DNA of 6,019 nucleotides, taken from NCBI GenBank assembly GCA_025774805.1, contig JALGZR010000141.1, positions 1 through 6,019 on the forward strand. The letters run 5' to 3'. The translations under genes and the position numbers were made by a program. The stretch comes from a bacterium (GTDB lineage: Bacteria > ARS69). A model generated the notes under the pieces. It was not told the DNA's origin. It ran no database searches and worked only from the letters and a program-made list of their open reading frames with translations. Of this stretch, positions 472-6,019 are shown piece after piece (position 1 is the stretch's first letter; each line of letters starts with the position of its first letter).

Positions 472-1057
472 CGTTCTCTCCTCTCCGTCGCTTCCGACGG
501 TCGAGTAGGTTCGGGTCGACCCCGCGTCGACTCATCACGAAATCCACCTGCTTCCGGAGCGAGGCCGCGCGCGACGTCCACGCGTCGGCCATCTGCTTCG
601 CGAGGTTCCTGCTCCGCTCGAGCGCCCGTCGCGCGTCCCGCCAACGGCGGTAGTCCGCGACGTTCCGGGCGACCCAGTTCTCGACGACCTCGTTCGTCAC
701 GACCCCCGAGTGGCGCTTCTCCCGCTTCCGCAGCTCGAGGTTCTCCCGCGCGTGCGCCTCCCACTCCGAGCGGGCGGCCTTGAAGTGCACGTCGAACTCG
801 TCGAGCTCCTCGGTCGCGACCTGCGCGAGCATCCCCGCCCGCCGGACGTTCGCGTCGACCGCGTCGAGCGCGCGGGATAGCCGCTCGGGGTCCGACCTCC
901 CGTCCCCGAGGGTCAACCCCGCCTCGAGCTCGGCCCAGACGCCCTCGACGTCGACCCGAGCGAGACGCTCCCGCATGAACCCGAACCGCTCCCCGCGCTC
1001 CTCGTGGCGCTCGATCGCGCGCGTCGCGTCTTTCGAGCTGGCCAGCCTCTTCTTCAT
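458..1057 (-). CDS. Helical charged protein, possibly a UvsY-like recombination mediator
   Basis: This is a complete 199-residue gene. The reading frame is open upstream to 1180, but the ATG at 1057 is preferred: it forms an ATGA overlap with the polymerase stop, has GGTGA ten bases upstream, and the extension upstream lies inside the polymerase coding sequence. The protein is almost entirely predicted helical and rich in Arg, Glu and Ala. Residues about 60-160 alternate long heptad-like segments (ALDAVDANVRRAGMLAQ, KAARSEWEAHARENLELRK, YRRWRDARRALERSRN) around a conserved-looking VVTNEVVENWVARN element, and the C-terminus is a basic tail, LDRRKRRR. No catalytic motif, signal peptide or membrane segment is visible. 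Small helical proteins of this build next to phage polymerases include the T4 UvsY recombination mediator, which loads recombinase on gp32-coated ssDNA. The resemblance is in architecture, not in identifiable sequence, so that function is only a hypothesis. Confidence 0.8.
   Translation of the reverse strand: MKKRLASSKDATRAIERHEERGERFGFMRERLARVDVEGVWAELEAGLTLGDGRSDPERLSRALDAVDANVRRAGMLAQVATEELDEFDVHFKAARSEWEAHARENLELRKREKRHSGVVTNEVVENWVARNVADYRRWRDARRALERSRNLAKQMADAWTSRAASLRKQVDFVMSRRGVDPNLLDRRKRRRGENDGEG
478..481 (-). promoter_or_regulatory. Ribosome binding site GGAG for the gene starting at 471
   Basis: On the minus strand GGAG lies six bases before the ATG at 471, within a purine-rich GGAGAGGAGAGAA tract. 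It is embedded in the last codons of the preceding reading frame, so translation of the two genes is probably coupled. Confidence 0.6.
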
Positions 1058-3762
1058 TCGACCGTCTTCACCCGGGGCGCGCGGCGGAGCTCCGCGAGTT
1101 CCGCCTCCCCGAGGTATCCCTTCTTGTTCTCCCGGATCCGCTCGACCGCCTTCCCGACGTTCTTCGGGTCGCGGAGCCACCGCTTGTACCGGGCGAGCAA
1201 CTTCTCCCGTCGCTGCCTAACCTCGATGAGCCATCCGTCCCAGTCGCGGTCGGGGAAGCAGACCCGGAGGACCCGGAGCGAGGCGGGGAAGATGATCCGG
1301 TCCCAGTAGTAGAGCGGGTCGTACGCGTGCTCGTCGGGGTCGAAGTGGTCGAGGAGGACGCCGTCGAGCCGCGGCTTCGCGGAGGTCACGACGTACTCGA
1401 TCTTCATCCCGATGAAGAACCCCTGCCCCTCGTCGCGGACCCACTCGGCGAGGTTCACGTGGAGGGGGCGCGTCTTGTACCGGTCGGGGTCCTTCGAGAT
1501 CGACTTCGAGATGACGACCTCCTCGACGTCGAGCTCCCCGGAGGCGACGCGGTCGAAGGTCGGCGCGACGATCTCCCGCTCGATCCGCTCCCCGTCCCAC
1601 GCCTTCATCAGGATCGCGTCCATCACCCGGCGCTGGAGGTCCCGCTGGAGCCGCGCGGTGTCGCCGCGCATGACCTCGAGCCCCTTCACCTCGACGTGGT
1701 CGGTGGCGGTCCCCTTATGCGAGAGCATCCGCCCGGCGTACCGCTTCTTGACGACGAAGAAGATCCGGTCGAAGATGTCCTCGAACTCGAGGAGGACGGA
1801 GTTCCACTCCATCCGGCAGCCGAGGGAGCGGAGGATCTCGGCGTAGCGCTCCTGGCAGTAGGCGACGAATCGGTTCCCGATCTCGTTCAACTCGCGGATC
1901 CGCGCCTCCTCGGAGGGCCACTCGCGGTCGCTCGGCGCGAGCTGAATGAAGATGCTGTCAGTATCACCATAAAGTGGAATAAATCCAAGCTCTTGTGCAT
2001 ATTTCGCGGTCTCGGTGATGAAGAACTGACCCGAGAGCGTGATCGCCTCCGCGAGCTCGACGTCGTAGAAGCGCGACCGCGGGTTCCCCATATCCCCGTA
2101 GAACGAGAGGCCGAGCCGCTTGAAACTGTAGGCCAGGCGGTAGTAGAGGAGGTAGAGGTCGTCCTGCGTCGTCCCCGTGACCTTCAGCCGCTCGTCCTGG
2201 AGCGTCGTATACTTCTTCCGCCGCTCGAGCGTCGAGACGAACATCTGCGAGATGAAGCCCTCGCGGTCGACCCGGAAGGTCGAGCCCCCGCGGAGCCCGT
2301 CGGTCTCCGCGTCGGCCGGGACGAACTCCGGGCAACGGCAGAGCGGGACGCCCTCGGCCTCGAGCTCCGCCAACCGGCCGGCCTTGACGATCGTCTCCGG
2401 CGAGATGTTGAACGCGCGGACCATCGACGGGTACAGACTCTTGAAGTCGAAGTCGGCCACGTTCTTATAAAGACCGACCGACGGTGGGAAGACGTAGGCG
2501 CCGGTGTACTTCTCGGGCCGCTTAGCGATCCAGAATCGAGACCGGTAGTGGAACCCGTCCTTCCGCCCCTTCTTGAGGAGGAGCTGGTCGACCTTCGTCG
2601 AAATACTAAAGTCATTTACGAACCCACAGCCGATCCGACAGAAGATCTGCTCGATGGAAACGAACCCAGTGAACTCCTCGAGCTTCCTGAGGATCTCGAC
2701 GTCGCGCTCGTTGTACCGGCGAAGCGTCGCCGGGTCCCGGCGATAGAGTTCGATAACCTTCGGCGGGACCCCCGGGAACCGCTCCCGGAACTCCGGCCGC
2801 CAGTCGAGCTTTGGCATCTTCAGAACCGACTGGCCTACGGCGTCGAGCGAGTAGGACGTGACGTCCGCACCCGCGCGGATGTAGTGTCTCCTGAAGACCG
2901 GGAGGGGGTCGGCGAAGAGCCAGTGACGCCAATTAATTCTGATATCGTAACGATTAAAGCGGGCGAAGATCATCGGGAAGTCGAAGTCCGCACCGTTCCA
3001 GGCGAGGAGCACGTCGTACGGCTTGATCGCGTCGCGGAAGTCCCGGAGCATCCGCTCCTCGTCCGCGTCCGACTCCTCGGCGAGCTCGAGGTACCCGGAG
3101 TCGGAGGGGTCGCCCTCGAACTCGTCGCCCTGCCAGGCGATCGAGAGGATCCGGTTCTCCTCCTTCCGGTCGAACCCCCCGACGGTGTCGTCGGTCTCGA
3201 TGTCGACGAACATCATTCGGTACTTCGCCTGGATCCGGAGATCGTGGTCGGTCATGAACCGCTGCTTCGGCGAGAGGTCGGCCTCGAGCGGCTCGACCCC
3301 CTTCTTCTGGAGCCAGTTGATCACCTCGTGAAAAGGTTTCCAGCGGTCGCGATCGAGCGGAAAGCGGATACTCTGCGGTCGCTCGCCGAGTGACAGTGGA
3401 GTAGACCAATTATATTGCGATGAACCAGAGTCAATTCTATCGAATATTAACTTCGAATCGAACTTCTCCATCGCGCGGTCGACGTAGATCCGGAGGTAGC
3501 GGTCGGGGAACTCCGGGTCGGGTTCCACCCGGTCGGCCCAACCGCGGGAGAGGAGCCACGCCCACTTCTCCGGCGGGATCGCGGCGTCCGCCTCCCGCCG
3601 GTCGACGAAGAAGTAAAACGGGTACTCGACGACCTCCCGCTTCCTGGCGCCGGTCTCCGTCCGGTAGAGGAGGACGACCTCGTCCCCCTCGGACCAACCG
3701 TGGTAGTAGTCGCGGGTCGGGTTCCACTGGTAGCGGGCGTCGACCTCCGTGATCGCGGTCAT
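1054..3762 (-). CDS. polB: B-family DNA polymerase with 3'-5' exonuclease
   Basis: Replicative template-directed DNA polymerase, 902 residues from the ATG at 3762. The N-terminal domain spans about 25-180. The exonuclease follows: Exo I FVDIET (Asp187, Glu189), Exo II NGADFD (Asn256 to Asp261), Exo III YNERD (Tyr350, Asp354), so proofreading should be active. Palm motif A is DFKSLYPS (Asp439) and motif C is YGDTDS (Asp600, Asp602). The thumb has KKRYAG (672-677) and KGLEVMRGD (693-701). Motif B reads KRLGLSFYG (548-556), with Leu552 where the family nearly always has Asn. No intein interrupts any motif, and no PCNA-binding box is evident at the C-terminus. Archaeal cellular and viral enzymes are typically about 780-900 residues, so the length is normal. 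The start is uncertain: the ATG has no ribosome binding site, and the 200 bases upstream look coding in the same frame. Several short patches use AT-ending codons unlike the rest. The stop overlaps the next gene as ATGA. Confidence 0.95.
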   Translation of the reverse strand: MTAITEVDARYQWNPTRDYYHGWSEGDEVVLLYRTETGARKREVVEYPFYFFVDRREADAAIPPEKWAWLLSRGWADRVEPDPEFPDRYLRIYVDRAMEKFDSKLIFDRIDSGSSQYNWSTPLSLGERPQSIRFPLDRDRWKPFHEVINWLQKKGVEPLEADLSPKQRFMTDHDLRIQAKYRMMFVDIETDDTVGGFDRKEENRILSIAWQGDEFEGDPSDSGYLELAEESDADEERMLRDFRDAIKPYDVLLAWNGADFDFPMIFARFNRYDIRINWRHWLFADPLPVFRRHYIRAGADVTSYSLDAVGQSVLKMPKLDWRPEFRERFPGVPPKVIELYRRDPATLRRYNERDVEILRKLEEFTGFVSIEQIFCRIGCGFVNDFSISTKVDQLLLKKGRKDGFHYRSRFWIAKRPEKYTGAYVFPPSVGLYKNVADFDFKSLYPSMVRAFNISPETIVKAGRLAELEAEGVPLCRCPEFVPADAETDGLRGGSTFRVDREGFISQMFVSTLERRKKYTTLQDERLKVTGTTQDDLYLLYYRLAYSFKRLGLSFYGDMGNPRSRFYDVELAEAITLSGQFFITETAKYAQELGFIPLYGDTDSIFIQLAPSDREWPSEEARIRELNEIGNRFVAYCQERYAEILRSLGCRMEWNSVLLEFEDIFDRIFFVVKKRYAGRMLSHKGTATDHVEVKGLEVMRGDTARLQRDLQRRVMDAILMKAWDGERIEREIVAPTFDRVASGELDVEEVVISKSISKDPDRYKTRPLHVNLAEWVRDEGQGFFIGMKIEYVVTSAKPRLDGVLLDHFDPDEHAYDPLYYWDRIIFPASLRVLRVCFPDRDWDGWLIEVRQRREKLLARYKRWLRDPKNVGKAVERIRENKKGYLGEAELAELRRAPRVKTVE
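1068..1072 (-). promoter_or_regulatory. Ribosome binding site GGTGA for the gene starting at 1057
   Basis: GGTGA, complementary to the usual 16S rRNA 3' end, lies ten bases before the ATG at 1057 and inside the last codons of the polymerase. It supports this start over the longer open frame and suggests translational coupling through the ATGA stop/start overlap. Confidence 0.45.
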
Positions 3763-3962
3763 GTCGTCGATCGAGCGGTCGACGTCGCCGTCGAACTTCC
3801 CGGCCTTGACCGCGTCGGCGTCGACGACTTGCTCGTGGAGGGCGGCCGCCCGCTTCCCTCCGTGGAGGTCGCCGTGGAGCGCCTGCGTGTCGTCGTCCGA
3901 GATCAGCGCGGCGCCGGTGCGGAAGTCGTCCCGGACCTCGACCGCGTCCCCCCCGTCCGGTT
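3763..3962 (-). other. Gene-free gap; probable N-terminal extension of the polymerase
   Basis: These 200 bases lie between the glycosylase stop (3963) and the first ATG of the polymerase. The polymerase frame is fully open here with strongly C/G-ending codons, encoding an acidic, probably flexible segment (for example LISDDDTQALHGDLHGG and ADAVKAGKFDGDVD). The other two minus frames hold no start codon for a small gene. No ATG, GTG or TTG occurs in the polymerase frame within the gap. The nearest upstream candidate is the GTG at 4047, which would give 997 residues, overlap the glycosylase gene by 85 bases, and has a GAGG only two bases before it. A run of seven C on the plus strand (3948-3954) sits just past the glycosylase stop and is a possible sequencing-error or slippage site. 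The coding reading rests on codon bias only. Confidence 0.5.
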
Positions 3963-4589
3963 TTAAGAGCGGGTTCGGAGCGAACTCGGAGCGAACCTCG
4001 TCAGGAACCCCCGGACCGTCTCCGTCTCGGTCGGGAGCCGCGTCCACTTCCTCAGCGTCGAGATCGGGTGGCGGAGGAGGATCCCCACCGCCGCCGTCCC
4101 CTCGACCGGTGAGACCTCCCCGAAGTCGCTTAACCCGAGGGCGACGCCGGCGACCCTCCCGAAGATCAGGACCGCCCGGAGGTCCGGGAGCGCCTCGAGC
4201 TCCCTCCGCAAGAACCTTTCTGCGCACGTCGTCACCTCCTCCGGCGTCGGCCTCCGGTTCCCCGGCGTCGCGCACTTGACGAGGTTCGCCGAGAAGACCC
4301 GCGCGAGGTCGAGCCCTGCGCCGTCGGCGATCGCCGCGAACGCCCTCGGGGACCCGCCGAGACGGAGCGCCCGCCACCGACCGCTCGCCCAGAACTTCGC
4401 GAGGGTCGGGACGAAGAACGCGCCGGCCTCGAAATTCATCGTCCGGACCGACGGGTTGATCCCGACGACCGCGACCTCGGCGTCCGGGGGACCGACCGCC
4501 CGGAGCTTCGGGAGCCCGAGCCCGCCGAGGCCGCACGCCCGGCAGGGTCCTGGATCCTCCCCGGTCAGCGCGCGATCCCGCTCGTCCAC
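3963..4589 (-). CDS. Uracil-DNA glycosylase superfamily protein, family 4/5-like with putative Fe-S cluster
   Basis: A 208-residue protein of the usual size for family 4/5 uracil-DNA glycosylases, which cut uracil (or related damaged bases) from DNA to begin base excision repair. Four cysteines fit the 4Fe-4S pattern of those families: Cys16 and Cys19 (CRACGLG), Cys106 (NLVKC) and Cys122, with the typical TPGNRRPTPEE between the last two. IFGRVAG (142-148) matches the conserved strand/helix turn, and LLRHPIST (171-178) is the C-terminal His motif of the uracil pocket. Motif 1 is GINPS (44-48) rather than the family-4 GEAPG, and the following NFEAGAFFVPTLAKFW recalls family-2 TDG/MUG enzymes, so substrate preference is uncertain. 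The GTG start at 4589 overlaps the preceding gene by 25 bases and has a GGGGAGGGG tract about 12 bases upstream. No later start keeps the first cysteine pair. Confidence 0.85.
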   Translation of the reverse strand: MDERDRALTGEDPGPCRACGLGGLGLPKLRAVGPPDAEVAVVGINPSVRTMNFEAGAFFVPTLAKFWASGRWRALRLGGSPRAFAAIADGAGLDLARVFSANLVKCATPGNRRPTPEEVTTCAERFLRRELEALPDLRAVLIFGRVAGVALGLSDFGEVSPVEGTAAVGILLRHPISTLRKWTRLPTETETVRGFLTRFAPSSLRTRS

Positions 4590-5599
4590 GGCGCGAACGC
4601 CCCCTCCCCGGCGCGGGAGAGCGTCTCGGGGAGGAGCCGCACCACGTGCCGTCTTAGTCCCCCCGGGTTCGCCCGGGCGCGCTCGACCTCCGCGCGGATC
4701 GCTTCCCTCAGCGGGGTCGGCCTCGAGTCGACGTACCGCCAGGCCCGTCCGGCGGCGTCCCCATCGTAGAGGTTGTCGCCCTTGTAGTCGAGCGCGCCGC
4801 GGACGTCGAGCCGGTCGCGGAAGAAGTCGTCCGCCCCGGTCTCCTCCCGAACGATCTCGACGATCTCACCGTATTTCAGCGCGCTCAGTCCCGCGATCGG
4901 GTGGGTCCCGCGAACGTACCGCCCGACCGCGCCGACGACGAAGCGACCGATGTCCTCGTGCCACGTCGGCTGCTTGATCCGCTCGGGGTCCAGCGGGAGG
5001 AGCACCCGCTCGTACCCCGGGATCCCGAGCGCGCCGCGAACCATCGCCGAGATCATCGAGATCCCGTCGTTCGCCCCGCCGAACCCGAAGGACGGGTAGA
5101 GGACGAGGAGGTTGTCCTCGCGCGCGGCCGCCCGGGCGACGCACTCGCCGAGCCACTTCGTCCAGCCGTAGAGCGTCCGCGGCCGCGGCGGGATCTCCCC
5201 GGGGGCGATCCGCCGGTCCACCCCGTAACCGTCCGCGCCGAAGGAGAAGACCGAGTCCGAGGAGAAGTGAACGAGGAGCGCGTCGACCGCGTCGGCCGCC
5301 TCCGCGAGGAGTCCCGCGACCGCGACGTTCGAGCGGTGGGCGACGTCGAACCCGACGGCGTCGACCTTGTGCGACCCGACGACCGCCGCCGCGTTGAGGA
5401 CGACGTCCGGCGCGACGTCGCGGACCCACGCGGCGAACGCCGGGTTCGCGGCGTCCGGCTCCGACCTCCCCGGGAAGAACGGGTCGCTCCACCTCGGGAA
5501 CTCCTCGGGCGCGTCGAGTCGCTCCCAACCGCTCTCCCGCGCGACGCGGTCCACCTCCGCCCCCATCATCCCGTGGTAACCGGTTATCACGTACCTCAT
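4565..5599 (-). CDS. Extended SDR, dTDP-4-dehydrorhamnose reductase/NAD-dependent epimerase-like
   Basis: A complete 344-residue cytosolic oxidoreductase of the extended short-chain dehydrogenase/reductase family. The Rossmann nucleotide-binding motif is GYHGMMG (7-13) after VIT. VVLNAAAVVG (66-75) is the family's NAA strand, FSSDSVF (112-118) holds the catalytic Ser region, and YGWTK (144-148) is the YxxxK catalytic pair. PSFGFGG and IKQPTWHEDIGRF match the later substrate-loop and Asp-Ile (DLA-type) elements of RmlD and epimerases. RmlD reduces dTDP-4-keto-L-rhamnose to dTDP-L-rhamnose, but the substrate cannot be read from the motifs and other nucleotide-sugar epimerases/reductases are possible. 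A 40-residue basic tail (about 305-344) extends past the usual fold. The ATG start overlaps the kinase stop as ATGA, with GGAG seven bases upstream. Its thymidylate-kinase-like neighbour fits dTDP-sugar supply, by inference only. Confidence 0.88.
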   Translation of the reverse strand: MRYVITGYHGMMGAEVDRVARESGWERLDAPEEFPRWSDPFFPGRSEPDAANPAFAAWVRDVAPDVVLNAAAVVGSHKVDAVGFDVAHRSNVAVAGLLAEAADAVDALLVHFSSDSVFSFGADGYGVDRRIAPGEIPPRPRTLYGWTKWLGECVARAAAREDNLLVLYPSFGFGGANDGISMISAMVRGALGIPGYERVLLPLDPERIKQPTWHEDIGRFVVGAVGRYVRGTHPIAGLSALKYGEIVEIVREETGADDFFRDRLDVRGALDYKGDNLYDGDAAGRAWRYVDSRPTPLREAIRAEVERARANPGGLRRHVVRLLPETLSRAGEGAFAPWTSGIAR

Positions 5600-6019
5600 C
5601 GGTCAACTCCGATTTCGAGTCCCCGCGAACCGTCGACGACGAGCACCGGGACGCCGGCCGCGGCGACCCTCGCGAAGAGCCTGTCGTAGGCGTCGATCTC
5701 CCTTATGACATCCGACGGGGTGGATCCCTCGCCTCGCTCGCTCAGCCTCCCGAGGATGACGCCGATCTCCGCGCGGACGTGAATCAGGACCTCCGATCCG
5801 CGTCCCCGGATCGCCCGCTCGACCGGTCCGGAAGCCAGGTGCTCCGGGAGCGACGGCCGATCGGGGTTGAGGTCCTTAAAGACGAAGGTCGTCGGCCAGT
5901 ACCGGTCGAGGACGAAGTCGTGGTTCGGCGCGACCTGCTCGACGATCAGGTCGAACGACGGCGTCTGCGTCTGAAGGTCGACCCCGGAGCAACCGGCCCG
6001 CTGCGCGACCTTCCGCCCG
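5596..6019 (-). CDS. Thymidylate kinase-like / deoxynucleoside kinase-like protein, C-terminal part
   Basis: This is the last 140 codons of a gene whose 5' end lies beyond the window (base 6019 belongs to a split codon). Enzymes of this fold transfer phosphate from ATP to dTMP or to deoxynucleosides to supply dNTPs. The visible part has VLDRYWPTTFVF, with the Asp38-Arg39 pair after a beta strand as in the DRY motif of thymidylate kinases. Next come VLIHVRAEIGVILGRLSERGEG, a strand followed by an Arg-rich helix like the phosphate-contacting lid region, and REIDAYDRLFARV, the usual helix before the terminal strand VPVLVVDGS. The P-loop, which would confirm the family, is in the missing N-terminus. 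The stop overlaps the next start as ATGA. A related dNMP kinase or another P-loop kinase cannot be excluded. Confidence 0.75.
   Translation of the reverse strand, partial: GRKVAQRAGCSGVDLQTQTPSFDLIVEQVAPNHDFVLDRYWPTTFVFKDLNPDRPSLPEHLASGPVERAIRGRGSEVLIHVRAEIGVILGRLSERGEGSTPSDVIREIDAYDRLFARVAAAGVPVLVVDGSRGLEIGVDR
5607..5610 (-). promoter_or_regulatory. Ribosome binding site GGAG for the SDR gene
   Basis: GGAG lies seven bases before the ATG at 5599 on the minus strand, inside the final codons of the kinase-like gene. It fixes the start of the reductase and points to coupled translation. Confidence 0.6.

Follow-up and report, generated by a model that had tools for sequence, protein, structure and literature searches.

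Leucine in place of the motif-B asparagine in the B-family DNA polymerases of an uncultured phage lineage

We describe a clade of otherwise orthodox B-family DNA polymerases (PolBs), probably phage replicases, all of which have lost a residue that is conserved across the family according to the literature. The reading to which we give a somewhat better than even chance is that a phage replicative PolB exchanged its otherwise universal motif-B asparagine for leucine once, that selection has held the leucine since, and that ribonucleotide discrimination has changed with it.

The polymerase gene and its motif B

The window analyzed here is the whole 6,019-base contig C260 of a 5.1 Mb genome bin (G000), and all of its evident genes are carried by the minus strand (Table 1). 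The polymerase gene is coding at least from 1057 to 3762, with its stop codon at 1054-1056; read from the ATG at 3762, the product is 902 residues long. The true start is probably the GTG at 4227, since an N-terminal extension is conserved and this GTG stands behind GGAGGAGGT; the N-terminal segment PRVKRLR, conserved in relatives, was used for this reading of the start site. The product matches PF00136 (E 2.4e-45; 155.6 bits, cut-off 23), exonuclease models and phrog_262 (E 8.8e-74), and its PDB relatives are KOD, RB69, Pol II and Pol alpha.

The original prediction, that motif B reads KRLGLSFYG with Leu in place of Asn, is borne out by the codons (AAG CGG CTC GGC CTC TCG TTC TAC GGG, 2121-2095) and by a gap-free HMMER alignment, in which K548, L552, S553, Y555 and G556 fall on K487, N491, S492, Y494 and G495 of KOD. 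The consensus at this site is KxxxNSxYG, from which PolB2 members depart too; in the window polymerase its Lys, Ser, Tyr and Gly are kept and its Asn is Leu. Because the motif is common to both enzymes, Leu552 is equated with N828 of yeast Pol epsilon. Membership in the PolB family rests on profile, fold and catalytic residues, and the departure in motif B is a variant. A shift of register that would restore the Asn was ruled out, as the KOD alignment is free of gaps and the stretch from K548 to G556 contains no Asn. A read error had been called unlikely on the grounds that Asn lies at least two base changes away; two changes do separate CTC from AAY, and sequencing error was ruled out by the agreement of eight sequences using four Leu codons.

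Table 1. Features of the 6,019-nucleotide window and of its polymerase
Feature	Position	Strand	Remark
Thymidylate-kinase-like protein	5596..6018	-	phrog_761, E 7.7e-5; truncated at contig end
RmlD/epimerase-like gene	4565-5599	-	
UDG-superfamily protein, family-4-like cysteines	3963..4589	-	PF03167, E 9.6e-13; TIGR00758 below cut-off
B-family DNA polymerase gene, exonuclease and palm/fingers/thumb	1054..4227	-	PF00136, exonuclease models, phrog_262, PDB relatives; start probable
Exonuclease motif I, DIE	3196..3204	-	Asp187 and Glu189; intact
Motif A, DFKSLYPS	2425..2448	-	Asp439 and steric-gate Tyr444; intact
Arg515	2218..2220	-	Retained helix-N Arg (RB69 R482)
Thr519	2206..2208	-	Fourth residue after the helix-N Arg; Lys in most PolBs (RB69 K486)
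Ala544	2131..2133	-	Four residues before the motif-B Lys; Gln in 88% of other PolBs
Motif B (helix P), KRLGLSFYG	2095..2121	-	
Lys548	2119..2121	-	Retained catalytic Lys of motif B (RB69 K560)
Leu552, codon CTC	2107..2109	-	Motif-B Asn position (KOD N491, RB69 N564, yeast Pol epsilon N828)
Motif C, YGDTDS	1954..1971	-	Intact
Two small genes		-	3'-most one truncated at contig end

Distribution and origin of the leucine

When the residue at position 552 was tabulated across PolBs, as the original prediction had proposed, Asn was found in all 160 of the other PolBs with intact motifs, many of them close kin rather than independent observations; Leu occurred in none, chance was excluded as an explanation, and the idea that Leu is common among ordinary relatives was dropped. 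The sample covers T4-like, cyanophage, haloviral and many metagenomic viral lineages with a few bacterial Pol II-like enzymes; most of it was fetched with motif C or motif A patterns, and it was not selected on motif B. Column 552 alone combines at least 90% conservation elsewhere with a difference that holds in every Leu-bearing polymerase. Among PF00136 matches from 116 species genomes, the intact-motif PolBs all carry Asn and the PolB2-type proteins carry Val (KWMLVTCFG, KWLLVVSFG); the PolB2 loci L009 and L011 fall on a branch of the tree separate from the Leu clade. Two viral outliers were set aside as degenerate: L124, with Lys at the Asn position and SLYDS as motif A, and L146, with Cys and a degenerate helix N. 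With their other damaged motifs, these PolB-like proteins are possibly inactive polymerases. In another viral PolB, L188, which has the conserved Asn, an intein-like insertion interrupts motif B immediately behind that residue (aligned as KELAN...NSMYG).

The Leu clade comprises eight distinct members, all reading KRLGLSFYG, at about 38-100% identity to the window polymerase. The seven relatives are a frameshifted copy on contig C263, which belongs to the same bin (72-85% identity), and six polymerases from independent viral contigs: L006 (62-63%), L017 (about 60%), L118, L119/L120 and L121 (about 60-63%), and L123 (38%). Across the clade the Leu codon is CTC, CTT, CTG or TTA; because the codon varies synonymously while the residue stays, we take the leucine to be genuine and maintained by purifying selection. 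A tree of 56 PolBs from which the trait columns 519, 544 and 552 had been left out separates the eight members from the rest by a single branch (SH-aLRT 99) and requires one change of state for the Leu trait, that is, a single origin. The suggestion that the substitution marks a distinct viral clade is thereby upheld. No clade member was seen among isolated phages, where the best INPHARED matches have 24-28% identity, nor by two pattern scans of the GTDB species genomes, a set that may lack the records of the window's genome, nor in four other genomes of the host's phylum; the clade is an uncultured phage lineage. The C263 copy (also L002, L115) has two frame-changing gaps and may be decayed or misassembled. 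In L017 (7750-8990), an intein-like insertion with a LAGLIDADG-like segment separates YGD from TDS in motif C.

Catalytic residues and gene neighborhood

That motifs A and C are intact beside the substitution, as originally stated, holds at the level of single residues: D439, D600, D602 and Y444 are present in the window polymerase. The exonuclease patterns DxE, NxxxFD and YxxxD are conserved as D187/E189, N256/D261 and Y350/D354. Invariant throughout the clade are D439, D602, D187/E189/D261/D354, Y444, R515 and K548/Y555/G556. An AlphaFold2 model computed from 37 sequences, without nucleotide, has a mean pLDDT of 84 and adopts the canonical PolB fold, with Z 27.8 to KOD and about 25.6-25.9 to RB69 within a range of 24-28 for KOD, RB69 and Pol alpha. 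The enzyme is most likely a fully active DNA polymerase with proofreading.

Each of six clade contigs (75-106 kb) carries one PolB gene, and neither PolA nor PolIII was detected on these contigs, which may be incomplete; the RNR large subunit is present on five of the six. In L017, UvsX/RecA-like and SbcD-like genes lie downstream of the polymerase. Since no other polymerase of families A, B or C was detected on the clade contigs, and replication genes adjoin it in L017, the simplest reading is that the window polymerase is probably the phage replicase. We therefore see very little probability in a catalytically weakened or accessory enzyme, as PolB2 was once thought to be. PolB2, with Val, is the other coherent group without the Asn, but the catalytic and exonuclease residues are all intact here, and even a PolB2 enzyme, Dpo2 of S. 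islandicus, is an active polymerase (PMC8764526). The degenerate exonuclease and the loss of the first motif-C Asp that define PolB2 are not found in the window polymerase.

A UDG-superfamily gene adjoins the polymerase in the window and in L006, L017, L118, L121 and L123. This neighbor might be thought to favor the earlier suggestion of uracil tolerance, by which the polymerase would replicate or make U-containing DNA. We consider this extremely improbable: a UDG and the dUTPase-like domain encoded upstream of the L017 polymerase are genes that keep uracil out of DNA, and the substituted residue does not contact the base. The UDG-like protein of the window has GINPS as its first motif instead of GExPG and scores far under the family-4 cut-offs; we presume that this motif is MUG/TDG-like. 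If the polymerase begins at GTG 4227, the two genes share about 260 nt, read in different frames (3963-4227); the segment PRVKRLR in the overlap is kept in L006, L017, L118 and L121, and also in L119, where no UDG was detected. In two distantly related viral PolBs (L134, 1767-3002; L141, 1761-3002), a UDG-superfamily domain (PF03167) is fused in frame to the PolB N-terminus and followed by the PolB exonuclease domain, which suggests that UDG and PolB may form a working partnership.

The original prediction also named tolerance of modified nucleotides. All six clade contigs carry a divergent ThyX-family gene, which adjoins PolB where it could be placed, an orthodox ThyX is found elsewhere on four of the six as well, and upstream of the L017 polymerase lie a kinase and a dUTPase-like/HAD-like fusion; the ThyX paralogue, kinase and pyrophosphohydrolase could together make a non-canonical pyrimidine dNTP for the polymerase. 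We regard this account as improbable. The same divergent ThyX adjoins the Asn-type polymerases L158, L128, L138 and L143, so it does not explain the Leu, and a specific link between the two was rejected. No ThyA-type hydroxymethylase was found, T4-like phages, some of which are known for modified bases, carry Asn, and the motif-B residue contacts phosphate and sugar, not base. In the divergent ThyX-family proteins (L006, 35-1198; L017, 3613-4683; L123, 3-932; L158, 1357-2337) the RHRxxS motif is altered to RARLG or RQRVG.

Proposed change in ribonucleotide discrimination, and the nearest known systems

The original prediction assigned the motif-B Asn to the nascent base-pair pocket, an assignment that the literature does not sustain. 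In RB69, N564 contacts the beta-phosphate through water while R482, K486 and K560 hold the triphosphate (PMC3564110). In yeast Pol epsilon, N828 makes a loose beta-phosphate bond with a dNTP, and a ribonucleotide pushes it aside; the N828V mutant is still active with dNTPs, accepts rNTPs and builds them in, and shows a 3.8-fold increase in mutation, and the Asn has been proposed as a ribonucleotide sensor in B-family polymerases generally (PMC10639073). The TNA polymerases Kod-RS, Kod-QS and Kod-RSGA contain the KOD substitution N491S (PMC9738464). A literature search on phi29 N387 and K379/K371 found nothing. On the strength of the RB69, Pol epsilon and KOD work, we take the residue to govern sugar and triphosphate sensing rather than the base-pair pocket. 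Because its contact is with the beta-phosphate and it senses the sugar, an effect on ribonucleotide discrimination is the prediction with the firmer footing. Altered sugar/triphosphate sensing would be the likeliest effect of Leu552, and by analogy with Pol epsilon N828V its direction would most likely be a relaxed discrimination against rNTPs. Leu is bulkier than Val; its bulk might leave the steric side of the sensing in place, or the effect on rNTPs could be small.

The surroundings of Leu552 in the fingers have changed too. Position 544 is Ala in all eight clade members and position 519 is Thr in seven and Gln in one; elsewhere the helix-N Lys position is also occupied by Q, S, R or G. In the model, L552 and A544 flank K548 at a distance of one turn within helix 535-559, and helix 503-529 contains T519; by sequence, positions 519 and 544 share a polar face with 552. 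A link of these changes with Leu552 is suggestive only, and the changes at 519, 544 and 552 all lie on a single branch. Arg549, directly after the motif-B Lys, was entertained as a compensating charge and dropped as a diagnostic, Arg being common there in Asn-type PolBs.

The changed helix positions, together with the single origin, also fit structural drift, in which the Leu would be neutral and kept through a re-packed helix while nucleotide selection stays normal. The hydrogen bond of the Asn is reported to be loose and non-essential, and dNTP activity is normal in Pol epsilon N828V (PMC10639073). We nevertheless hold drift to be unlikely, given the uniform Asn of the other intact-motif PolBs and a Leu that persists in the whole clade despite synonymous codon change. 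In the reading that we favor, altered ribonucleotide discrimination, the polar, triphosphate-facing side of the fingers would have been remodeled jointly while Arg515 and Lys548 were retained, and the sensor in the fingers, which serves as a second check behind the steric-gate Tyr, would have been altered. A bolder form of that reading, which we think quite unlikely, is a phage replicase without a finger sugar sensor, whose genome would be ribonucleotide-dense or contain a non-standard nucleotide, and which would be a natural counterpart of the engineered XNA/TNA polymerases.

The Leu clade is a natural exception to the finger-sensor model among apparently working, proofreading replicases; it suggests that replication in nature can do without the motif-B Asn, and it offers a natural test of the choice between DNA and RNA building blocks and of what replaces the Asn. 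As KOD N491 is changed in laboratory-selected TNA polymerases, the Leu-clade enzymes may also be useful starting points for sugar-modified substrates.

Four known systems come closest. In yeast Pol epsilon N828V, the same position of KxxxNSxYG is aliphatic and the steric-gate Tyr is kept, as in the window polymerase; the Val is engineered whereas the Leu is natural, and the Gln four residues before the motif-B Lys and the helix-N Lys are unchanged in Pol epsilon. Kod-RS, Kod-QS and Kod-RSGA are engineered from an archaeal PolB with a fold that is among the nearest to our model; they are altered at the same position and are reported to favor TNA, which has another sugar, over DNA (PMC9738464). 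Unlike the window polymerase, they carry Ser, have either A485R or L489Q in addition and a knocked-out exonuclease, and were selected in the laboratory. PolB2 (G2; archaeal and bacterial, for example S. islandicus Dpo2) has likewise lost the motif-B Asn in nature, the residue being Val in the sequences examined, and is a family that has been maintained and includes an active enzyme. Its members lack a working exonuclease and usually the first motif-C Asp and serve in translesion extension, whereas the window polymerase has both elements intact and is replicase-like. The T4/RB69-like, cyanophage and haloviral PolBs (phrog_262) are viral replicative enzymes with the same domains and motifs at 20-28% identity; in contrast to the window polymerase, all of them carry Asn, with mostly Gln four residues before the motif-B Lys and Lys or Arg on helix N.
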